Shown here in pieces: positions 1 to 40,352 of a stretch of 40,352 nt of DNA. Position 1 is the stretch's first letter. The number at the start of each line of letters is the position of its first letter. Below the pieces are notes generated by a model. The model did not search any database. It was not told where the DNA came from and saw only the letters and a program-made list of their open reading frames with translations. The DNA lies in IMG/VR virus record IMGVR_UViG_3300010400_000032, positions 1 through 40,352 of that record; one strand, written 5' to 3'. This DNA comes from a virus. The position numbers were made by a program, and so were the translations under genes.

Positions 1-220
1 AGTTCGACCCAACGCCGTTCGATGACGCGGCAAAGGTGACCGTTTGGCGCGCATATGAGCCGCCCGTCACCTCGTTCGTGAGCGTACCGGCCTCGAGTTC
101 CGCCGACGTTGCAGTGCTCGTAAAGAGCGCGAGGTAAAGCGTCGCGGCAGGAGTGTACGACGTGTTTCGAAACACATGATCGTAAATCTTGGTTTCGAGG
201 AAATTACTGGCCTGAGACAT
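1..220 (-). CDS. Phage virion protein, N-terminal part (continues at the right end of the window)
   Basis: The reading frame starts at ATG 220 on the minus strand and runs off the left edge. It encodes about 73 residues beginning MSQASNFLETKIYDH. GGAG lies 7 nt before the start, just after a terminator hairpin. The C-terminal part is at 40163-40352. With the 8-base end overlap collapsed the joined gene is 402 nt, giving 133 residues and a stop. The sequence resembles small beta-rich phage tail or neck proteins with N-terminal Asn/Tyr-rich and C-terminal Ig-like strands. The role is inferred from its place in the late operon. Confidence 0.75.
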   Translation of the reverse strand, partial: MSQASNFLETKIYDHVFRNTSYTPAATLYLALFTSTATSAELEAGTLTNEVTGGSYARQTVTFAASSNGVGSN

Positions 221-16889: not shown

Positions 16890-17194
16890 TCGTCACCTTC
16901 GAGCAGCTACGCCAAATCAGCCGCCGCAAGTCGCGGCTGGGTGTGCGTAAGTGGCTCATGGAGAACAAGATCACGCACGGTTTGGGGAGCGACGGCGCAC
17001 CCTGGACTACTACTGAGGCGATCAACAAGGCACTCTTGGGCCCAGAACTACAACCGGATTTCTCCGCATGCCGCTCCCGCCAGGCGTCACACCCAAGCAC
17101 GGCCGGTACTACATCGTCCGGCGCAACAAGTGGCATCCGCTCACGCGCATCGACGAGGGCGAGGTTGCGCTCCTTGAGGCTTACTACGAGTTAA
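16886..17194 (+). CDS. DUF4224-like protein preceding the integrase (excisionase position)
   Basis: The gene encodes 102 residues from GTG 16886 (overlap). Residues 4-50 (FEQLRQISRRKSRLGVRKWL, then TTTEAINKALLG) resemble DUF4224, a short HTH-like domain often directly upstream of phage integrases. The frame runs 127 nt into the integrase gene; the Ser/Arg-rich tail looks like out-of-frame sequence. It may serve as an excisionase or recombination directionality factor; this is inferred from position. Confidence 0.55.
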   Translation: MIVTFEQLRQISRRKSRLGVRKWLMENKITHGLGSDGAPWTTTEAINKALLGPELQPDFSACRSRQASHPSTAGTTSSGATSGIRSRASTRARLRSLRLTTS

Positions 17195-17976
17195 CGCATG
17201 CCGACCCGCACAACATGGCGGGAGTGCTGATCGCGTTTATCAAAGCCGGCATGACGAAACTCAGACCACCAACGCAGCGAGACTACCGGCGAATTGTCGT
17301 GACCCGCCTGATTCCCTTCTGCGGCCACATGCCGCGCAACGCATTGAAGCCGACGCACGTCGCGCAGTATCTCGACCAGCGCGAAACCGAGGGCGCGGCG
17401 GTCGCTGGCAACCGTGAGCGCGCGTGCCTTTCAAGCGCCTGCAATTATGGGATGCGCAAGGGCTGGCTCGAGATGAACCCATGCCACGGCGTCAGGCGCA
17501 ACACCGAGCGGCCGAGCAAGGTCTACGTCGCCCACGAGGCCCTGTCCGCGGCTATCGACCGCGCGCCGGAATGCCTGCAGGATCTCCTGGCCGTCGCCTA
17601 CCTCACCGGCATCCGCCAAACCGACCTGCGGCAGATGACCCCGTCAGCTGTGCATGGCGATCGGCTCAGGTTCATCGAAAGCAAGACCGGCAAACCTGCC
17701 GACTACGAGATTACCCGCACGTTGCGGTTCTTCGTGGATCGTGCGTTAAACCGCGCCAGGGGCTTCAGGAGCGGCGCGCTGTTCACCTCTCCCAGAGGGC
17801 TCCCCTGGTCAGAGTGGGGCCTGCAAAGTGCAATGCGACGGCTGAACCCCGGCTTTCAGTTCAGGCAGCTGAGGCCGAAGGCGCAGACCGACGCCCCGGA
17901 CAGGAATGTGATCGGCCACATGGGACAGATGCGGGTGGCGTACACCCGGGCGGACCGGCGCCGGCCGGTGAAGTGA
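17068..17976 (+). CDS. int: Tyrosine-family site-specific integrase
   Basis: The protein has 302 residues. The N-terminal segment MPLPPGVTPKHGRYYIVRRN is typical of phage integrases, and a SAM-like core-binding domain follows (about 50-145). Catalytic positions are Arg183 (TGIRQTDLRQM), Lys206 (SKTGK), Arg269 (RQLRPKAQTD), His284 (IGHMGQ) and Tyr292 (AYTRADRR). The first residue of the HxxR box is Arg266 instead of His. The C-terminus is short, ending 10 residues after Tyr292. It integrates the phage by recombination at attP, 45 bp downstream of its stop, into a tRNA-Lys(CTT) gene. Confidence 0.9.
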   Translation: MPLPPGVTPKHGRYYIVRRNKWHPLTRIDEGEVALLEAYYELTHADPHNMAGVLIAFIKAGMTKLRPPTQRDYRRIVVTRLIPFCGHMPRNALKPTHVAQYLDQRETEGAAVAGNRERACLSSACNYGMRKGWLEMNPCHGVRRNTERPSKVYVAHEALSAAIDRAPECLQDLLAVAYLTGIRQTDLRQMTPSAVHGDRLRFIESKTGKPADYEITRTLRFFVDRALNRARGFRSGALFTSPRGLPWSEWGLQSAMRRLNPGFQFRQLRPKAQTDAPDRNVIGHMGQMRVAYTRADRRRPVK

Positions 17977-18130: not shown

Positions 18131-18210
18131 CACCTGAGCCATGCTTATATATATGCGAGACGGAGCGAATGGCGAGACGGTCAATTGAGGACAACAAAGG
18201 GAGAACAACA

Positions 18211-18987
18211 ATGCAATGGCTCAACAGATTCCTGAAGCTTCACCCGAGACTTTTCGACCTGGCCCTACGGCTGAAATCCAGCCACGGTTACACGGACGAG
18301 ATATTCAAGGAGTTTTCACGGAAGCTGAATGGGGATGTCCGCTTCATTCAGATCGGTGCAGCGGATGGGCTCCGGTGGGACCCGATGCGACGGTACGTGG
18401 TCATGCACGGCTGGAAAGGCGTGTTTGTAGAACCAGTGCCATCGACGTTTGACTTGCTCAAGAAGAACTATGCGCACCACAAAGGACTCACCTTCGTGAA
18501 CGCCGCAATCGTCGGTGAGAATACCGAACTTCAATTCTGGACGTTCTCACCGCCGTTCTTGGCCTCAATCCCAATTGAGGCGCGCACCTTCTACTTGAGA
18601 AAAAGCTCATTCGAAAAGCGGTTGGCAATTGCTGCCGCGACCGAATATACGGACGTTGAGCGCGAGTTCCTGGCCAAGAATGGCTTCCCGCCTCGCGATG
18701 TCAGCGAACACGTTGTCAGCATTCTCGTGCAGAGCATGACGCTCAATACACTGGTTGAGCGGTACAATATCGACCGCGTGGACTTCCTGATGATCGACAC
18801 AGAAGGACATGAGGCCGAAATCATTCCGGCTATCGACTTCAAACGTGTTCGTCCGAGGGCAATCCTTTACGAGAACATGAACATGAAGCCGGATGACAGG
18901 GAGAAAGTTGCCGCATATCTGATGTGGAACGGCTACACGGTAAGGGATCTGGCGCACTCAGATTCGTTTGCGACGAGGAATGATTAG
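18211..18987 (+). CDS. FkbM-family SAM-dependent methyltransferase (moron)
   Basis: The gene encodes 258 residues from ATG 18211, with GGGAG 7 nt upstream; an in-frame ATG at 18169 is possible. FkbM motifs are FIQIGAADG (45-53), VFVEPVPSTFDLL (71-83), LTFVNAAI (93-100) and VDFLMIDTEGHEAEII (about 190-205). These enzymes usually O-methylate sugars or small molecules. It lies between attP and the lysis genes, opposite to the late operon, with an AT-rich TATATATA box about 60 nt upstream that may be its own promoter. It is a likely lysogenic-conversion gene altering surface glycan, inferred from family and position. Confidence 0.85.
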   Translation: MQWLNRFLKLHPRLFDLALRLKSSHGYTDEIFKEFSRKLNGDVRFIQIGAADGLRWDPMRRYVVMHGWKGVFVEPVPSTFDLLKKNYAHHKGLTFVNAAIVGENTELQFWTFSPPFLASIPIEARTFYLRKSSFEKRLAIAAATEYTDVEREFLAKNGFPPRDVSEHVVSILVQSMTLNTLVERYNIDRVDFLMIDTEGHEAEIIPAIDFKRVRPRAILYENMNMKPDDREKVAAYLMWNGYTVRDLAHSDSFATRND

Positions 18988-32216: not shown

Positions 32217-32645
32217 TTAGATGTGCTGACAGAACAACACGAGAGTCACGCTGCCGGCCGCTGCGGTAGCCGCTGCGGTCGTCGATACGATTGTCACGAG
32301 CTGTTTGTCCGTGCCGGGCGTTGTCTGCACGGCGGTCGTGGTCGGGGCATTCAATGAAGAAGTACCCGACTGACCGCCAGTCAAACCCGTCACCACGTCC
32401 ACGGCGTTCACCGTGACCTTGTGCACCAAGGCCGCGGAGACGTTCGTGTCCATGTCGGTCGGGAAGTATCCAACCCCGACGACACGCGTGTTTGCCGGGA
32501 TGTAGCCCATCTCCATGACGTCGTTCAGCTCGTTCTGCGTCGTGCTGAATGACTTCGTGAAGACTGCGAGGAAAGCCCCCGCACCGACGTTGTCGTAGAA
32601 AGTCCGAGCCTCTGCGGCCGGGAGTGAAGTTGTTTCGCCTGCCAT
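32217..32645 (-). CDS. Capsid-associated / decoration protein candidate
   Basis: The protein has 142 residues. It lies directly after the coat gene, 12 nt away, and before the gp4-like gene. It is soluble and beta-rich, with a central VVGVGYFPTDMDTNVSAALV and a Ser/Thr/Ala-rich C-terminal half ending VTLVLFCQHI. Proteins in this place are often head decoration or stabilising proteins. The family is not recognised with certainty. Confidence 0.6.
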   Translation of the reverse strand: MAGETTSLPAAEARTFYDNVGAGAFLAVFTKSFSTTQNELNDVMEMGYIPANTRVVGVGYFPTDMDTNVSAALVHKVTVNAVDVVTGLTGGQSGTSSLNAPTTTAVQTTPGTDKQLVTIVSTTAAATAAAGSVTLVLFCQHI

Positions 32646-32657
32646 GTTCGTTCTCCT

Positions 32658-33791
32658 TTACGGCACGTAAGCGAAGAAGCCGGTGGCGATACCGTTCTGC
32701 TTCGGGGTGGTGGTATCGGCTGCACCGGAGCCGAAGTAGGTTTTGGCGATGCCGTCCCACATCTCCACACCCACGCCCACGGCCGCGCCGTAGTCGTCGG
32801 TGTCCTGGATGATGCGTTGACGTTTCGCGATGGCGTACGAGAGCGCCTGCGCACCGCAGAGGTACGCAACACCCACGTTCGCCGACGAGGCGCCGACAGT
32901 TCCCAGGTTCTGGATCTCAGGGATCTCGCGAATGACGATGCCGTCATACATGAGGTCGCCGGAGGTGAATATCGGATTGTCCTTGCGGGACTCACCGCCC
33001 TGAATCAGAGCCTGGTTGAGGGTACCCAGATCGCTCTGCAACGCGCGGAAAAGCGCCGTGCCGCAGAAACAGACGTAATACTCCTCTTCGTCGTTCACCT
33101 TGATCGGCTTGACCTTCGGCGTTGCAGCCTTCGCCATGTCCTTCAGCTTCTTCAGGTTTGCACCCGTGAAGAGGTCGTTGGTCGTGTCGAGCTGCGTCAG
33201 GTCCGTCGCGAGCACGGTGTAACCCGCCGCTGCATTGGACGCTGCGAAGCAGATGCGGTCGGCGTTGTTGATCAACCAGGTGTTGCGATTGCCGGCCGAA
33301 GCGGACGCGTACGGGGTATGCGTTGAACCGTCGGTCGAAATCGAACCCATGGCGATGATGATCCGGTCGCGGATGTTCTCCTTTGACCAGTCCATCAACG
33401 TCGCGCGCTTGGAGTCGGCGATGTCCACCGCACTCACCTGCTCGTCGAACACGTCATGCAACACGGCCCAGCGGGTACGTGCGACGCTGACGCGGAAGTT
33501 GCGCTGTACCTGCGCCTCTTCGTTGCCCTTCAGGCGGTTGTATCCGGTGATACCGGACATCTGGTTCGCAACCGCACCCGTCAAGGTGTTCTGGTTGCCA
33601 GCCAAACGGTTGACGAGGGTGAAGTTGACCTGTTCGCCAACCTTTTTGGTCAGGTCCTCGTTGATCTGAATGGGAGACAGTTCGTCCGTCCCCATGTACT
33701 TGGAAAAGCGATTTGCGCGAACGTATTCGCGAAAATACTTGCTCTCCCACTGAATTTGCCGACTGTTTGTCGGCACTACAGTCTGTGCCAC
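32658..33791 (-). CDS. Major capsid protein (N4-gp56 / DUF4043 type, HK97 fold)
   Basis: The gene encodes 377 residues from GTG 33791, with GGAG 7 nt upstream. DLTKKVGEQVNFTLVNRLAG, then YNRLKGNEEAQVQRNFRVSV and the long spine region identify the N4 gp56-like coat family. It would form the icosahedral shell on the scaffold encoded upstream. It is preceded by a terminator, which may set its mRNA level apart from scaffold. Coat family differs from that of P22 although the surrounding order is P22-like. Confidence 0.85.
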   Translation of the reverse strand: MAQTVVPTNSRQIQWESKYFREYVRANRFSKYMGTDELSPIQINEDLTKKVGEQVNFTLVNRLAGNQNTLTGAVANQMSGITGYNRLKGNEEAQVQRNFRVSVARTRWAVLHDVFDEQVSAVDIADSKRATLMDWSKENIRDRIIIAMGSISTDGSTHTPYASASAGNRNTWLINNADRICFAASNAAAGYTVLATDLTQLDTTNDLFTGANLKKLKDMAKAATPKVKPIKVNDEEEYYVCFCGTALFRALQSDLGTLNQALIQGGESRKDNPIFTSGDLMYDGIVIREIPEIQNLGTVGASSANVGVAYLCGAQALSYAIAKRQRIIQDTDDYGAAVGVGVEMWDGIAKTYFGSGAADTTTPKQNGIATGFFAYVP

Positions 33792-33876: not shown

Positions 33877-34704
33877 TTAGCGTGATTGGTTACCGAATCG
33901 GGCGATGGTCTTGATATCCTCAGGGTCTGCGCTACCGGCTTGCGGAGCGGCCCCAGAAGGACGACTGTTGAGGGAGCGCGGGATGTGTTCCAGGTCTGTC
34001 ATCTTCTGCGTGAGATCGGCAATTTGAGCTTCGAGAGACTTGATGCGCGTGTCACGTTCGGTGATCTGCGCACGCGAATCGGCGGTAATCTTCTCGCGGT
34101 ACTTCATAAAGTCCCCGCCGACATCGGCGAGTTCCTTGATCTGAAGGCCCACGGTGTAGATGTAATCGCCTGGATCGGCTGATGCACGAAGGCCCGCAAT
34201 GAGCCGGTCATCGTGCTCGGCAGCCTCGGCAAATGCGGTTTCCGCATCACCGAATGCTTCCTTGTAGGTCAGCCGGGCGATCTTCACGGACTGCTGATAA
34301 AGCTGTTCGCGAAGGCCGCGCGTGCCATCGTCTACCCGCGTGCTGATTGCCTTGTCTTCGTCGTCGAAGACGGAGGGTTTCGGCTGCGCGGGCTGCTTTC
34401 CCTCGAGTTCTCGCAGGCGGGCCTCTGCGGCCTGGCGCTTGCGTCGCTCGTCGAGAAGTGCAGCCACCTCACCACGGGGCCGGGCCGGTTCTTTTGCGTC
34501 AGCCTTTGGCTCTTCACCTTCAGGTTCGACCTTCGCAAACTTCCCGTCCGCACCGCGTGCTGGTGCTTTCTCATCTGCCTTGGTCTCGCTTCCTGCTGCC
34601 GGCGGCGCAGTTTCGGTCTTTTCGACCACGCCCGTTTCGGAAGGAACTTCGGCCTGCTCTTTGTTGCTCAAAATGTCAGAAACGCTTTCCATTGGAACAC
34701 TCAC
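33877..34704 (-). CDS. Scaffolding protein
   Basis: The gene encodes 275 residues from GTG 34704, chosen because GAGGAG lies 6 nt upstream; TTG 34722 and ATG 34692 are alternatives. The product is acidic and Ala/Glu/Lys/Pro-rich at the start, with PARGADGKFAKVEPEGEE. A long coiled coil follows (ITERDTRIKSLEAQIADLTQ, residues about 215-240), then a basic C-terminal end. This is the usual scaffold layout between portal and coat. It helps assemble the procapsid and then leaves. Confidence 0.75.
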   Translation of the reverse strand: MSVPMESVSDILSNKEQAEVPSETGVVEKTETAPPAAGSETKADEKAPARGADGKFAKVEPEGEEPKADAKEPARPRGEVAALLDERRKRQAAEARLRELEGKQPAQPKPSVFDDEDKAISTRVDDGTRGLREQLYQQSVKIARLTYKEAFGDAETAFAEAAEHDDRLIAGLRASADPGDYIYTVGLQIKELADVGGDFMKYREKITADSRAQITERDTRIKSLEAQIADLTQKMTDLEHIPRSLNSRPSGAAPQAGSADPEDIKTIARFGNQSR

Positions 34705-34768
34705 GTCACTCTCCTCACTCAAACGCCCGACTCAGCGGCGGCCTGTAACGCCCGAAACCCGGCGGCGG

Positions 34769-36763
34769 TCAATTCACGGAAACTTGTGTCTTTGAGCCAG
34801 GCTTCGCGGCAGGTTCGCCATGCTGCTGCAGCTCAGTGAAGGTCGCAACCTTCGCACTCGCATCGATGTGACTCTCAACGGCGGCAGCCTTGTCCTTCTC
34901 AGCACCCGCCTCGGCCTTGTCAGCCTCAGCTTCGGTCTTTCTGAGGGTCGCCTTCGTGATGAGCGCCTGAAGCTGCTGCATCATCTGTTGGAACTGTGCC
35001 TGCTGCTGTGCGGCTGGATCGTCACCACCTTTCATGCGCTCGAGCACGCGCTTTTTCGTCGTTGCGCGTAGCTGGCTCATCTCAACGATGACATCGAAGG
35101 GGACGTCCGGACGTTTGTCAGCGATGCGCGCGAGGATTTCGAATTCCTCCTGCTGCACCGTCACCACGTCCTGACCGCGATCGATAATGATGTCGATATC
35201 CATCTGCGCAACATCGTTCGTGCGCATGGGATTTCCGGTCTTGTCGTCGTAATACTGCGACTGAGACTCACTGCGACGCGCAATCTCCTCGACAATTCCA
35301 CGCTTCGCCTCTGGGGGAAGCTGCTGAAACTCCGGGTTTTGAGCTGCTTGTCGTGCAAGCATGTCACCCATGAGAACCGGCTGATTGAGCCCAACCCACT
35401 TGATCTTCTGCTCATCGTCCGTCACGCGCACCCACATAGGAGCAGTCCAATACTGACGAATGCGGCACCAGACTTGTCGATACATCCGCAACTCCCATGC
35501 GTCGAGCGCATCGAAGAGCGGGGAAATCGGCAGTTGTCCGGCCTGCTGGTCTCGAGCCTTGGCGATTCCTGAGATATCGCCCGACGTGCCCATGATCGCG
35601 GCATTTGGGCCGGTCTGAGAGAGTGCAATGTCGGTCTGCTGCAAGAGACGCCACTGCCCTTCTGCCTCGGCAAGATTGTCTTCAATGACCAGGTCTTCCG
35701 GCGAGCCGTTGATCTCGATCACGCCATCGGCTTTGTGGATCTCGTCGCGAATCTTCTTGATGCCGCCGTCTTCATCCGTCACCGCACCTTTGCGCATCTT
35801 GATTCGCTTGGCACTCAGGAGATGCAGCATCTTCGAACGGCGCTTGTTGTGCTCGTCCTGTAAGTCAAGATCGCGCTTCACCTTGCCGTAAGGATTTCCG
35901 TCGCTGTCTCGATACAGCGCCTGAATCTCCATGCAGCAATACGGCTGACCGTATTCGTCCTTGTATTCGCAGGGCTTGGGCTTCTCTAACCACCCGCCCC
36001 GACACCAAACAGCCTCATACCAGCGGCCTTTTTTCAAGAAGTAGTGATAAAACACCTGCACGCGCTTTCGCTTGCCTGAGGTGAGCGTATAGCGCGGCTT
36101 GTCATCGAGTGAGGCATCGGGGCCTGACTGAGACGTACTACCAGTGCTCGAATCGAGTGCGTCCTTACCCTCCGGCCAGTCCTCTTCTGCGACCGTCTGA
36201 TCCATCCAGGTGAAATAACCGCAATAGGTCTTGTCGGAAAAATCGTCCTTGAGTGAGTGAATGTCGTAGTAAACACGATCCCTGCGGATGTGCTCCATCA
36301 ACACTCGAGGAGGCTGACCGCGTCGCTTCTCGACAATCACCTGGCCTGCGCAGATCCCCTCAACTTGGAGGTTGTCAGCGGCGGGTTTACGAACTGAAGT
36401 CTTGTAGGTGCACTGATCTGCAACGAAGCGAAGGCCATCCGTCGCCGCTTCAGCACTCTGCTCGTCTTCCGGAGAAGGATTGCGCGGATACGCCTTGGGG
36501 TCGGTGCGCATCTGCTTTTCGATGCCAAGCACCGTGTCGCACTTGTCGCCAATCTTGTTATCGGTGATGCAGGGCTGCTTGCGCTTGGCAAGGACTCTGC
36601 GTTCATCCGCCGTCCATTGATCGCCGTCACGATACTGCCGGCACTTCTCCTGCAAACGACGGGTGTCAATGGTGGAGTCCGCGAATTCTTCGAACTGCTG
36701 CACCACTTTCTGGTGCTCGTCGTCCTCGAATACCGGGGCATTTCCTGTCACGCCACCTTCCAA
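34769..36763 (-). CDS. Portal protein (P22-type)
   Basis: The gene encodes 664 residues from TTG 36763, with a strong GAGGAGG 4 nt upstream; GTG 36751 is possible. The start has a helical RRLQEKCRQYRDGDQW and CITDNKIGDKCDTVLGIEKQ, and the middle has YFTWMDQTVAEEDWPEG and LQDEHNKRRSKMLHLLSAKR, as in P22-type portal proteins. The C-terminus is a Gln/Lys/Ala helical barrel-like segment (AAQQQAQFQQMMQQLQALIT). It forms the 12-fold DNA channel bound by terminase and gp4/gp10. The end overlaps no late gene but is close to scaffold. Confidence 0.9.
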   Translation of the reverse strand: MEGGVTGNAPVFEDDEHQKVVQQFEEFADSTIDTRRLQEKCRQYRDGDQWTADERRVLAKRKQPCITDNKIGDKCDTVLGIEKQMRTDPKAYPRNPSPEDEQSAEAATDGLRFVADQCTYKTSVRKPAADNLQVEGICAGQVIVEKRRGQPPRVLMEHIRRDRVYYDIHSLKDDFSDKTYCGYFTWMDQTVAEEDWPEGKDALDSSTGSTSQSGPDASLDDKPRYTLTSGKRKRVQVFYHYFLKKGRWYEAVWCRGGWLEKPKPCEYKDEYGQPYCCMEIQALYRDSDGNPYGKVKRDLDLQDEHNKRRSKMLHLLSAKRIKMRKGAVTDEDGGIKKIRDEIHKADGVIEINGSPEDLVIEDNLAEAEGQWRLLQQTDIALSQTGPNAAIMGTSGDISGIAKARDQQAGQLPISPLFDALDAWELRMYRQVWCRIRQYWTAPMWVRVTDDEQKIKWVGLNQPVLMGDMLARQAAQNPEFQQLPPEAKRGIVEEIARRSESQSQYYDDKTGNPMRTNDVAQMDIDIIIDRGQDVVTVQQEEFEILARIADKRPDVPFDVIVEMSQLRATTKKRVLERMKGGDDPAAQQQAQFQQMMQQLQALITKATLRKTEAEADKAEAGAEKDKAAAVESHIDASAKVATFTELQQHGEPAAKPGSKTQVSVN

Positions 36764-38226
36764 GATTCCTCCTCGCTTCCGATATCGTAGTCACCGCGCC
36801 GCTTTTCTGGCTTCGGTGGTGCCTTGCTGATCGCGGGATGCGCATCGTTGATCACTCGACCCATGACGGCACCAGCGTCAACCTCGTCATCGTTTTTGCC
36901 ACCAGGAAAGGCGATGTATTGCTCGATCAACTCGTCACCCTCTTGCCCGACCGGAATCCACACCCGTCCTTGCGCGCACATCGCCTGAAAGGCTTGCGCC
37001 TTGATTTCCTTGTTCGCACCGTTCGGACTTACCGGCTCAATGCGGCAGTAAGCCCCTTCGCGTCGCATCTCTTTCGTGACAAAGCCTGCTACGGCCTTCC
37101 AGTTGTTGTCGTCCTCTGGAAACCAGCACAGCGGCTGGTGACGCTGGATGAGTCCCTGCTGCTGCTTTTCCCGGACGCCTAACACTCGCTCGGAAACAAC
37201 ATCCATAGTTGTTTGCTTACGAAAGCCGTCGAGCATGTAGATGTCGTCTCCTGAGAGACCCCACACCCGCACGCAGTTGAAGTCATTGCCCTCACCACCT
37301 GCGGGTGCGTGGTCGCTCGTCAGATACTTGTGCATGACGCGCGGCAAATCTTCGGCGCGATATCTGCGGAACCACTCGCGCTTGAAAAACGTGCCCTCAG
37401 CCGGGGTGGGATTCTGCATGTAGAGCGCCGACCACTTACGCGGTCCTGACACGGCCTTGATTCTCTCAAGTGCTGCGCGGTCATAGCGTTCAGCCCACGG
37501 CGGGTCTTCGAGATCAGCGGGAATCTCGATGACTTCCCACTTATCAGGTCCACCATCCTTCATCTGCTGGATCAACCGACCCGCAAAATCGTCCTCATGC
37601 ATGCGATGGTTAATTACGATGATCTTTCCACCGGGACGAATGCGGTTATAGAACGTGCCCGTGTACCAGTCCCACACCCGATCTCGCGCACCTTCGTTCT
37701 GCGCGTCCTCCCAGCTCGAGAAAGGATCGTCTATGAGCCCCAGCTCACCACCGCGGCCCATAATCGTTCCGCCGATGCCAACGGCGTAATACCCACCGCC
37801 GTCCTGCGTGTTCCACCGGCCCTTGGCCTGGCTGTCCTCCGCGAGACGAGTTCCGGGGAAAAGATTCCGGTACTCAGACGAATCGATGCAATTTCGTGTT
37901 TCTCGCCCGAAGTCCGCCGCAAGAGCCTCAGTAGCCGAAACAGAAATCACATCCGTATTCGGAACATGCCCCAGCACGTAAGCAGGAAGTCTGCGCGATG
38001 AAATGTCGCTCTTGCCGTGCTGTGGAGGACAGCAGATGAGGCACCGATCTACATCGCCACGTACGACCCTATCGAGACGTTCGCAGATTTCCTTGTGCAT
38101 CCGCCCCGCTTTCCAGCCGGGCTTGGTGTACTCAATGAAGGCCTGAAGGGTCTTCCTCGCTGACCGCCTCATCAGCAGCTCTATCGCCGCCTCCGCCTTC
38201 GTTACGAATGATGTTGAGGAGTTCAT
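36748..38226 (-). CDS. Terminase large subunit (TerL)
   Basis: The protein has 492 residues. The ATPase has CPPQHGKSDIS (66-76, Walker A-like) and LGLIDDPF (162-169, Walker B). HRMHEDDF (about 206-213) lies in the coupling region. The nuclease domain (about 300-470) has SDHAPAGGEGNDFNCVRVWG and a C-terminal Asp-Glu-Val-Asp stretch. It packages DNA into the procapsid through the portal. The first 19 residues overlap the TerS-like gene by 95 nt; ATG 38172 is a downstream alternative. The last 16 nt overlap the portal start. Confidence 0.95.
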   Translation of the reverse strand: MNSSTSFVTKAEAAIELLMRRSARKTLQAFIEYTKPGWKAGRMHKEICERLDRVVRGDVDRCLICCPPQHGKSDISSRRLPAYVLGHVPNTDVISVSATEALAADFGRETRNCIDSSEYRNLFPGTRLAEDSQAKGRWNTQDGGGYYAVGIGGTIMGRGGELGLIDDPFSSWEDAQNEGARDRVWDWYTGTFYNRIRPGGKIIVINHRMHEDDFAGRLIQQMKDGGPDKWEVIEIPADLEDPPWAERYDRAALERIKAVSGPRKWSALYMQNPTPAEGTFFKREWFRRYRAEDLPRVMHKYLTSDHAPAGGEGNDFNCVRVWGLSGDDIYMLDGFRKQTTMDVVSERVLGVREKQQQGLIQRHQPLCWFPEDDNNWKAVAGFVTKEMRREGAYCRIEPVSPNGANKEIKAQAFQAMCAQGRVWIPVGQEGDELIEQYIAFPGGKNDDEVDAGAVMGRVINDAHPAISKAPPKPEKRRGDYDIGSEEESWKVA

Positions 38227-38530
38227 CGTCAGTCAGTTCCTCGGCCAAGCGCTGCGTGAAATCGACATCCACATGCTCGCGCGGCTTGCCGTCGAGACGG
38301 TTTGCAATCTCCTGGCGGGCTGCATGACGCACCTCGAACACATCAGAAAGCGCATCCTCAACCACGCGGCGGGCGATCTTTGCAAGTGCTTCGCCTTTCT
38401 TGATCTTGTCGTCTTCGTAGAAGTGAAGCTCGGCCCGCAAATGTCGTTCCCAATCCTTCGACTTGCGCCCGTTCTTGTTTCCCAAGGGAGCACCGCGCCC
38501 CTTGACGAATGTCGTCTCATTCCTGGCCAT
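38132..38530 (-). CDS. Terminase small subunit-like protein (TerS)
   Basis: The gene encodes 132 residues from ATG 38530 (TGATG overlap with the dioxygenase gene). VKGRGAPLGNKNGRKSKDW at the start resembles the DNA-binding N-terminus of DUF5681/TerS proteins, and GEALAKIARRVVEDALSDVF is an oligomerising helix. NRLDGKPRE and a Glu/Asp-rich end complete it. It directly precedes TerL. It would recognise the packaging start. Divergent sequence, so assignment leans on position. Confidence 0.7.
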   Translation of the reverse strand: MARNETTFVKGRGAPLGNKNGRKSKDWERHLRAELHFYEDDKIKKGEALAKIARRVVEDALSDVFEVRHAARQEIANRLDGKPREHVDVDFTQRLAEELTDDELLNIIRNEGGGGDRAADEAVSEEDPSGLH

Positions 38531-38952
38531 CACCACCACTCCACAAGCAAATGAATTCTGTCTGTCTTCCCACGGTTGAACGCCCAATGAAGCGGGGAAC
38601 GTTCAACGAGATACCGCCTGCCTTTGACAAGATGCATACGCCTTTCTCGGCCTCGATTGTCTATCCACCAGTTCTCACAACCCTCATTCGTGGACAGCAC
38701 GAGGTGATGAGTACAACCTGGAATGAAGTCATCGTGATGGCGAGGAATGTCTCCTCCCGCAGGAATGCGAATGAAAAACGCTCTTGAGCATGGTTCCCAG
38801 AAACTCACATCCGCCGTGTCGTAGGCCCTGCTTGGAATCTCGCGCCATGGTGCTGCGTCAGCCAGGGCCTGAAGCCGCTGCATGTCCGAATCACTCAAGA
38901 CACCGAGATCCGTTGCGAATCTGTCAACCGCACGCGCTCCGGCGGTCATCAT
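38530..38952 (-). CDS. Aspartyl/asparaginyl beta-hydroxylase-like 2-oxoglutarate dioxygenase
   Basis: The gene encodes 140 residues from ATG 38952 (ATGA overlap). A helical start is followed by a double-stranded beta-helix core: FFIRIPAGGDIPRHHDDF (59-76) with likely Fe ligands His72/His73 and Asp74/Asp75, THHLVLSTNE (81-90), HLVKGRRYLVERS (107-119), LHWAFNRG (121-128, distal His122) and DRIHLLVEW (131-139, Arg132 for 2-oxoglutarate). The ladder matches Asp/Asn beta-hydroxylases. It lies between virion genes and terminase. It may hydroxylate a virion or host protein; the target is unknown. Confidence 0.65.
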   Translation of the reverse strand: MMTAGARAVDRFATDLGVLSDSDMQRLQALADAAPWREIPSRAYDTADVSFWEPCSRAFFIRIPAGGDIPRHHDDFIPGCTHHLVLSTNEGCENWWIDNRGRERRMHLVKGRRYLVERSPLHWAFNRGKTDRIHLLVEWW

Positions 38953-39251
38953 TGGCTGCGGCCGACCACGCGGATTGTTTTGTCTCGTGAGCGGCCGCCA
39001 GCGGTCGTGTAGCGACAAGTTATGCGATAGGTGCGGCCGCACTCTGCGCCGCTCACGAAGATGGTTGCCGTGGTGTCAGTGTTGCTTGAGGAGACTTGCG
39101 TCAATCCATCCGGCAACAAAAAGGTCACGGTAGCGATGGTGTCGTCGTCCAAATCACCAGCGAAGACGAACTCAAAGTCCTCGATGGCGTCAGGGTCAAT
39201 CTCGAAATCCGGCTGGCAACTGCCGTTCACAAAGCCATAGTCGGTCGTCAT
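38949..39251 (-). CDS. Small Ig-like virion protein (100 aa)
   Basis: The product is acidic in its N-terminal third, with an Ig/Fn3-like strand pattern (DTIATVTFLLPDGLTQVS, ATIFVSGAECGRTYRITCRY). One Cys pair could stabilise it. It overlaps both neighbours by 4 nt. Probably a small tail or head appendage domain; no family is certain. Confidence 0.65.
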   Translation of the reverse strand: MTTDYGFVNGSCQPDFEIDPDAIEDFEFVFAGDLDDDTIATVTFLLPDGLTQVSSSNTDTTATIFVSGAECGRTYRITCRYTTAGGRSRDKTIRVVGRSQ

Positions 39252-40159
39252 ATAACGCGCCTGCGGGGCTTGTGAGCCAAGCGATGTCCAATGGGCGTAC
39301 GACGATCAGGACCTCGAATGGTGACGCTCACGAAGCTGCCTGTAAGCCCGCCGATGATGACTGGGGAGACTTGCTGAGTTTCGTAAGTTGCAGCAGACGT
39401 GTGTCGGATCACAACCTCGTCGCCCGCGTTGATCACTCCTGCGATTGATGTGAAGGCACTACCGTTGATCGAATACGTACCATTGGTGATCGAAATGATC
39501 GCCGGCTGCGTATTGCCGGTGATGGTGACCGGGTCGGACTCCGTAAGCGTTGACAGTTCAACGCTGAATTTGGCGGCGAAGAAGAACAGATCCGGAACAT
39601 TGGCGGCGGCTGTGATTGAACCGACAGCAGTTCCGGCCAAAATGAGGCTTCCGGCCGCACTCGTGGTGATCGTGCCGCCGGTAATGTTCGGCGCGCCCAA
39701 CGTACCGGCGAAGATGACCGATCCGAGCGCGGTAGAACCATTCGCACCAGCAACCGAACCCGCAAACACAATGGCGCCGGCCGCGTCCATCGTGAAGATT
39801 GATCCGACCGTGGCTGAACCGCCAAAGACAATCGATCCCGACCCAATCGCATCGCACCTGGCTGAACCAGCAAGGGCAATACCGCCTGAGGCTGAGCCCA
39901 AATTGCGCTGCAATCCAGTTGCAGCACCTGCAAGGACAACATTCCCGCTGCCTGAGACCTCAATCGAAATTGTCGATACCGGCCCGCCGGAGAAGACAAT
40001 CCCGCCGCTGGCATCGCCCGTAACTGAAGGCGTTGAACCTGCGGCAGTGCCGGCAAAAACAATCGCCGCAGCAGTAACTGTAGCCGTGACAATCGAAAGC
40101 CCGCCGAAGCGGAAAACCTCCGGCTCACGGAATACGATGCGGCGGCGAAAAACGCTCAT
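39248..40159 (-). CDS. Repeat-rich beta-structured virion protein
   Basis: The protein has 303 residues. Residues about 20-190 contain eight spaced copies of a short beta motif, Gly-x-Ile-Val-Phe-Ala-Gly-Thr/Ser-Ala (AAIVFAGTA, GGIVFSGGP, GNVVLAGAA, GSIVFGGSA and others), about every 18-25 residues. Residues about 205-280 form a phage Ig-like domain (PAIISITNGTYSINGSAFTS, then INAGDEVVIRHTSAATYETQ). A basic tail follows. The repeats could make a beta-solenoid shaft. Located among virion genes upstream of terminase. Confidence 0.7.
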   Translation of the reverse strand: MSVFRRRIVFREPEVFRFGGLSIVTATVTAAAIVFAGTAAGSTPSVTGDASGGIVFSGGPVSTISIEVSGSGNVVLAGAATGLQRNLGSASGGIALAGSARCDAIGSGSIVFGGSATVGSIFTMDAAGAIVFAGSVAGANGSTALGSVIFAGTLGAPNITGGTITTSAAGSLILAGTAVGSITAAANVPDLFFFAAKFSVELSTLTESDPVTITGNTQPAIISITNGTYSINGSAFTSIAGVINAGDEVVIRHTSAATYETQQVSPVIIGGLTGSFVSVTIRGPDRRTPIGHRLAHKPRRRVI

Positions 40160-40162
40160 CGA

Positions 40163-40352
40163 TTACGCCACGCTTGGCGCGACGCTTCCGGCGTTGAACT
40201 GGAAGGTGTTGGACGTGTTGATGGTCACATCGGAGGTGAGCTGCGCGTACCACAGAACGTTTCCGGCGCTCGATGCGTCCATGACTGCCACGAACCGAAT
40301 TGTTCCCCATCCTGCGGATGCTGTTGGGAAGGTGATCGTGCCTGAGTTCGAC
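40163..40352 (-). CDS. Phage virion protein, C-terminal part (continues at the left end)
   Basis: The minus-strand frame runs from the right edge to a TAA at 40163-40165. It reads SNSGTITFPTASAGWGTIRF and then a beta-rich end (WYAQLTSDVTINTSNTFQF), typical of small phage tail proteins. It continues the gene starting at 220: the shared 8 bases at the window ends allow an exact in-frame join of 402 nt. It ends 3 nt before the ATG of the repeat-rich virion gene. Confidence 0.75.
   Translation of the reverse strand, partial: SNSGTITFPTASAGWGTIRFVAVMDASSAGNVLWYAQLTSDVTINTSNTFQFNAGSVAPSVA

Follow-up and report, generated by a model that had tools for sequence, protein, structure and literature searches.

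A small PF05118-family oxygenase encoded in the virion operon of an uncultured phage and its relatives

The oxygenase gene and its operon

The window described here is the whole 40352-base stretch of an IMG/VR virus record from an uncultured phage. Its minus strand carries a 2OG/Fe(II) oxygenase gene (38530..38952), which begins with ATG, encodes 140 aa and is assigned from a PF05118 match, conserved ligands and a fold model. In minus-strand order, fibre-like genes and a repetitive protein are followed by a gp77-type adaptor, the oxygenase, a presumed small terminase (TerS), the large terminase (TerL) and the portal, and then by a presumed scaffold, the head protein, a small virion protein, a head-closure protein and, later, a DNA-ejection protein. 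The repetitive 303-aa protein (39248..40159, minus strand) is a presumed tail component, judged from its position and a homologue in the related record L003, and has no Pfam match, while the 100-aa fibre-tail adaptor (38949..39251, minus) matches PF23148 Gp77 at E=6.9e-17. On the other side of the oxygenase, also on the minus strand, lie TerL (36748..38226; phrog_38, 2.5e-96; PF03237, PF17289), the portal (34769..36763; phrog_156, 2.9e-88), the presumed scaffold (33877..34722; placed by position and homology, with a marginal PHROG match at E=0.0096), the major head protein (32658..33791; phrog_334, 1.8e-53) and a 142-aa virion protein (32217..32645; phrog_8455, E=0.0011), which contains the motif TDMDTN and is a speculative candidate substrate. 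The ORF between oxygenase and TerL (38132..38530, minus) is weakly identified as TerS: its DUF5681 match scores 19.2 bits, below the cut-off of 27.5, there is no convincing PHROG, and the name comes from its position before TerL and its 41-43% identity to the ORF preceding TerL in L016.

The match to PF05118 (Asp_Arg_Hydrox) spans residues 54-140 of the oxygenase at 41.1 bits against a cut-off of 22.6 (E=2e-10), other PF05118 members of the set scoring 30.6-45 bits and more, and membership in the 2OG/Fe(II) oxygenase class is near certain. PHROGs gave no significant match (best phrog_25472, E=0.099) and PADLOC gave no match. The upstream adaptor gene overlaps the oxygenase start as ATGA, and the oxygenase stop (38532-38530) overlaps the ATG at 38530 of the presumed TerS as TGATG. 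A first-pass annotation of this DNA had described a 2OG dioxygenase inside the late structural operon with start/stop overlaps on both sides, and both points are borne out, the first by the family score and the virion-gene neighbours and the second by these overlaps. No promoter-like site was found in a search of 36600-40352, so that the case for co-transcription is the gene overlaps themselves; the oxygenase would probably be made late in infection together with the virion proteins.

Clear homologues in 11 further records, at 43-69% identity to the window protein, and dN/dS values of 0.09-0.22 in four of six oxygenase pairs (the remaining two being saturated for dS) establish that the ORF is not a chance one, and purifying selection is seen in those four pairs. 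The ATG at 38952 is favoured as the start over a GTG at 39042, since the N-termini of the proteins of L003, L010, L019 and L024 align from that methionine.

One gene with a homologue in L003 spans both ends of the window (1-220 and 40163-40352, minus) with a frame shift at the joint, and the record is read as an almost complete circular map containing a small error or gap, not an exact one. The phage is possibly temperate, as suggested by an integrase-like gene (17068-17976, plus) whose PF22022 match is barely over the cut-off. An FkbM-family methyltransferase gene (18169-18987, plus) would encode a second accessory enzyme.

Active site and predicted fold

Residue conservation was assessed in an alignment of 22 proteins, from which L099 (identical to L098) and two cyanophage matches (E=2e-4 to 5e-4) were left out. 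His72 and Asp74 are conserved in 22/22 proteins, and His122 and Arg132 in all 21 that are readable there, one protein ending before them. By family resemblance, His72-x-Asp74 and His122 are the presumed metal ligands and Arg132 the presumed 2OG C5-carboxylate arginine; the first three would hold Fe(II) and the last would hold 2OG. The Fe ligands called plausible at first pass thus form a complete HxD...H triad that every aligned homologue keeps, and loss of these ligands among homologues, which would have spoken against the proposal, was not seen. The gene would make an active, stand-alone Fe(II)/2OG oxygenase of the PF05118 superfamily, which may insert oxygen into a C-H bond of its target. 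The small size of the protein might instead suggest a catalytically dead or purely structural beta-helix protein, beta-rich folds being used by several phage virion proteins; the metal and 2OG residues do not vary among 22 proteins drawn from several branches, which makes this very improbable.

The first-pass annotation had proposed a genuine Asp/Asn beta-hydroxylase acting on an appendage or packaging protein. The family name and the position beside adaptor and terminase are in keeping with it, as is a fold match to human AspH (6q9f; Z 12.0 and rmsd 2.9 across 133 residues at 11% identity). The two enzymes have the fold and a His...His...Arg arrangement in common, Arg132 standing ten residues after His122 as AspH Arg735 does after His725. 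According to an excerpt of PMC6817910, human AspH holds Fe via His679 and His725 only, binds 2OG through Arg735 and Ser668, and binds the substrate Asp through Arg688 and Lys666. The window enzyme, by contrast, has the presumed carboxylate ligand Asp74 in addition to the two histidines and is without the TPR domain. AspH Arg735 would correspond to Arg132, and Arg688-x-His690 probably to Thr81-x-His83, the latter equivalence coming from sequence alignment with a longer class of phage proteins rather than from superposition. Thr81 is found in 14/14 small forms (the window's group), and its position is occupied by Arg in seven and Lys in one (MW202665) of eight longer proteins. "Asp/Asn hydroxylase" is therefore an over-specific name for the window enzyme, given the complete triad and the Thr at the position aligned with Arg688; the nearest solved sequences, which are small-molecule hydroxylases, also count against that specificity. 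Together with the exchange of neighbouring terminases and adaptors while the enzyme stays (below), these differences leave the Asp/Asn proposal improbable.

The predicted model (pLDDT 93.3, pTM 0.87) has double-stranded beta-helix 2OG oxygenases as its best solved matches in Foldseek and VIA-align, consistent with a protein predicted to adopt that fold, and its best viral structure matches are phage proteins named Asp/Asn/Pro hydroxylase. L-proline cis-4-hydroxylase heads the Foldseek ranking (4p7w/4p7x, E=4.7e-7 and 5.2e-7), and the VIA-align Z scores are 12.8 for both PHD2 and the 7v4 group, 12.6 for AlkB and 12.0 for AspH; with these enzymes within about 1 Z, the model comparison is clear as to superfamily and does not settle specificity. 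A profile search against solved sequences returned 4p7w at 3.3e-4 and 7v4f at 0.0019.

These matches bear on a different interpretation, in which the enzyme acts on a free amino acid, an envelope lipid or a host protein and thereby changes the infected cell. Besides L-proline cis-4-hydroxylase and 7v4f, it draws on a weak resemblance to the LpxO lipid A hydroxylase (NCBIfam NF033391; E=3.4e-5) and on the presence among the fold matches of 4iw3, in which a Pseudomonas prolyl hydroxylase is in complex with EF-Tu, a host protein. However, the solved matches have weak sequence similarity and do not separate the candidate enzyme types, a chance ankyrin match (7.2e-4) falls between the two true ones of the profile search, and LpxO membership fails the cut-off, at 23.1 bits against 500. 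L-proline cis-4-hydroxylase resembles the window protein in the aligned HxD, H and HLVL.TN stretch, but has about 280-290 residues against 140, 19% identity and Arg-x-His where the window protein has Thr-x-His, and is not among the 50 best matches listed by VIA-align. The 7v4f-group beta-hydroxylase of a nucleoside-antibiotic pathway has a small PF05118-like fold (Z 12.8 over 121 residues), but is 16-20% identical to the window protein and belongs to secondary metabolism, not to phage.

Relatives and changes of gene position

Relatives were gathered by oxygenase-sequence scans and by a portal scan and profile search. The 11 records with clear homologues are L003, L010, L019 and L024, which have a gp77-type adaptor as in the window; L004, L008, L009 and L013, which have another adaptor type; and L016, L018 and L097. 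A more distant small form occurs in L098, L099 and L100. The longer class (about 184-208 aa) is found in L036, L022 (cut), L155, L156 and L158 and in the phage records Pseudomonas phage PfAn1, Limnohabitans phage DC33 and MW202665; its members keep HxD/H/Arg as in the window and lie in the late operon where genes are named, but occupy a different slot and are weakly similar to the window protein. Records L005, L006 and L007 matched the pattern FWEPCSR, encode an unrelated 301-aa protein and were dropped, and two short "phage" records and a Salmonella record matched by L018, all carrying a protein that one of them names a bacterial beta-hydroxylase, were excluded. The DC33 record (L090, PQ492659.1) is filed under Inoviridae although it is circular, 39 kb long and carries about 50 genes, and its taxonomy looks doubtful. 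L003 (3300049334_000004) and L132 (3300049334_000008) come from the same sample and are possibly two parts of one genome, one contig ending in the scaffold region and the other beginning before the head gene. Close oxygenase relatives were absent from phage records (E up to 0.01), from plasmids and from genome_contigs, where pattern scans for oxygenase and portal can find only sequences that contain the patterns used; these collections therefore yielded no host or cellular donor.

Of 45 portal-relative records, 12 contain PF05118, as do 4 of 49 relatives found by head protein or TDMDTN protein. Among the window and the 17 portal relatives of at least 50% identity among the matches listed, 12 of 18 have it, and the six without it are contigs of 4.4 to 11.9 kb. 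One near relative, L017, covers both the adaptor/TerS and the portal/scaffold junctions and has the oxygenase gene in neither.

In the oxygenase-sequence scan, 14/14 loci lie among fibre, adaptor, terminase, portal or scaffold genes, the neighbours being identified by homology, Pfam or eye. The slot varies: between adaptor and TerS in the window, L003, L004, L008, L009 and L013; before the adaptor in L010, L019 and L024; between portal and scaffold in L016, L018 and L097; and in the fibre cluster in L098, L099 and L100. L008 and L018, with head proteins 91% and portals 73% identical, carry the enzyme in different slots, and their oxygenases are only 44% identical. The enzyme has two unrelated types of adaptor as neighbours, and in L017 and L117 a gp77-type adaptor leads on to TerS without an intervening oxygenase gene. 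The oxygenases of the window and L003 are 69% identical and their TerL proteins 16%. The TerS-TerL pair (window 36748-38530) is swapped in L003 for an unrelated-looking pair, and the flanking genes stay homologous.

These comparisons tell against the packaging target proposed at first pass. With several slots, exchanged neighbours and the same neighbours in relatives without the enzyme, modification of TerS/TerL or of the adaptor is unlikely: TerL is rejected as substrate by its exchange beside a retained enzyme, and the adaptor is weakened as a candidate by its two types and by the adaptor-bearing phages without the gene. Mantel comparisons of oxygenase distances gave r=-0.04 with TerL (n=11), r=0.40 with the portal (p=0.002, n=12), r=0.25 with the adaptor (p=0.05, n=12), r=0.14 with the scaffold (n=6) and r=-0.14 with the head protein (n=6). 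The portal result indicates some shared descent, so that the slot changes should not be read purely as a sign of free mobility.

Relatives without a PF05118 match, L017 and L117 (41.7 kb) among them, retain head, portal and adaptor genes of these types, so the core virion can do without the oxygenase. The pattern suggests an accessory late gene that is kept, lost or regained by lineage, useful in the assembly block yet dispensable; it would have entered some lineages, shifted from one gene junction to another and dropped out of some relatives, staying intact where present. An accessory gene that moves independently of the terminases suits an action on the infected cell, whereas its confinement to the virion operon in all 14 oxygenase-sequence matches read does not, and such an action on small molecules or the host is possible but somewhat doubtful.

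A slot after the head-closure gene and a gene of ~200 aa is a variable enzyme slot among relatives (L036 10892-12465; L017 11084-11695; L018 14259-14879; L027 18545-19586; L117 9196-9657; L153 13058-13867), occupied by a PF05118 oxygenase together with a GNAT acetyltransferase, by DUF6445, by a cupin-like protein or by a SET-match protein. DUF6445, in this slot of L017 and L018, looks 2OG-oxygenase-like by eye. The cupin-like protein was rejected as a replacement enzyme, being present both with the oxygenase (L016, L004, L008) and without it (L117, L161, L164, L175); it was identified by eye, Cupin_2 being below the cut-off for L117 and L016 having no Pfam match.

Candidate substrates and significance

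The tentatively preferred reading is that of an accessory late-operon oxygenase that hydroxylates a phage protein in the assembly pool. The likeliest target would be a side chain of such a protein, most probably of the head or fibres; TerS, TerL and the neighbouring adaptor would be less likely. Against this, a gene located in the late operon could also be an accessory one directed at the host, the closest solved sequences belong to enzymes with small-molecule substrates, and the relatives without PF05118 keep the same kinds of structural genes.

A narrower proposal takes as substrate a TDMDTN loop, presumed exposed, in the protein whose gene directly follows that of the major head protein, with dedicated beta-hydroxylation by at least two PF05118 branches. 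TDMDTN is present in 13/13 readable oxygenase-bearing records (eight of the window's group, five of the longer class) and in two (L117, L153) of the eight enzyme-lacking records in which all slots are covered and a homologue of the TDMDTN protein is present, counts that are uncorrected for kinship and may reflect perhaps three independent gains. These eight were L017, L027, L051, L060, L070, L117, L152 and L153; L017, 18 bases short of the coverage limit, had its slot read by eye, and L117 was admitted with its ends read as one adaptor gene. Fully covered records with neither enzyme nor a homologue of the TDMDTN protein (L049, L050, L052, L079, L082, L135) were left out of the count, as were part-covered records. 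The latter include L118, L121, L132, L140, L142 and L159, which have TDMDTN, L014 and L023, with the variants TDMDTG and SDMDTN, and the 26 loci L160-L185, without a D[LM]D motif. The motif has been lost in L017 and occurs in no other of 10943 ORF entries; beyond the oxygenase-bearing records it is mostly degenerate or missing. Such a pattern would be expected if the enzyme were useful only where the loop exists, and kinship can give the same pattern. Two of the enzyme-lacking records carry the motif without a PF05118 gene, and in the fetched stretches of PfAn1, DC33, MW202665, L098, L099 and L100, which encode PF05118 enzymes, no ORF contains a D[LM]D[TS] motif, so this loop is a distinctly unlikely substrate.

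More generally, 2OG oxygenases turn up repeatedly in phage genomes, where they are often classed as auxiliary metabolic genes, and we know of no established targets for them. The view taken at first pass that such an enzyme has little precedent does not hold, as phages have already been reported to encode 2OG oxygenases, some of them AspH-type. According to portions of the respective papers, an aspartyl/asparaginyl beta-hydroxylase is among the proteins core to all pelagimyophages (PMC7029224), two cyanophages share two asparaginyl beta-hydroxylases amid many reported 2OG-FeII oxygenases (PMC3037559), 2OG-Fe(II) oxygenases are widespread in marine phages (PMC12774648), and aspartyl hydroxylase is listed as an auxiliary metabolic gene (PMC11288001). 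A search covering parts of the literature found no report of a hydroxylated phage virion protein, which is no proof of absence.

The branch described here stays with the virion operon in every oxygenase-sequence match read, has a distinct active-site signature, and switches slot between phages with nearly identical capsids. If its target is a virion protein, oxygen-dependent modification of phage particles would become testable; if the target lies in the host, the enzyme would be a late-acting host-modifying one.
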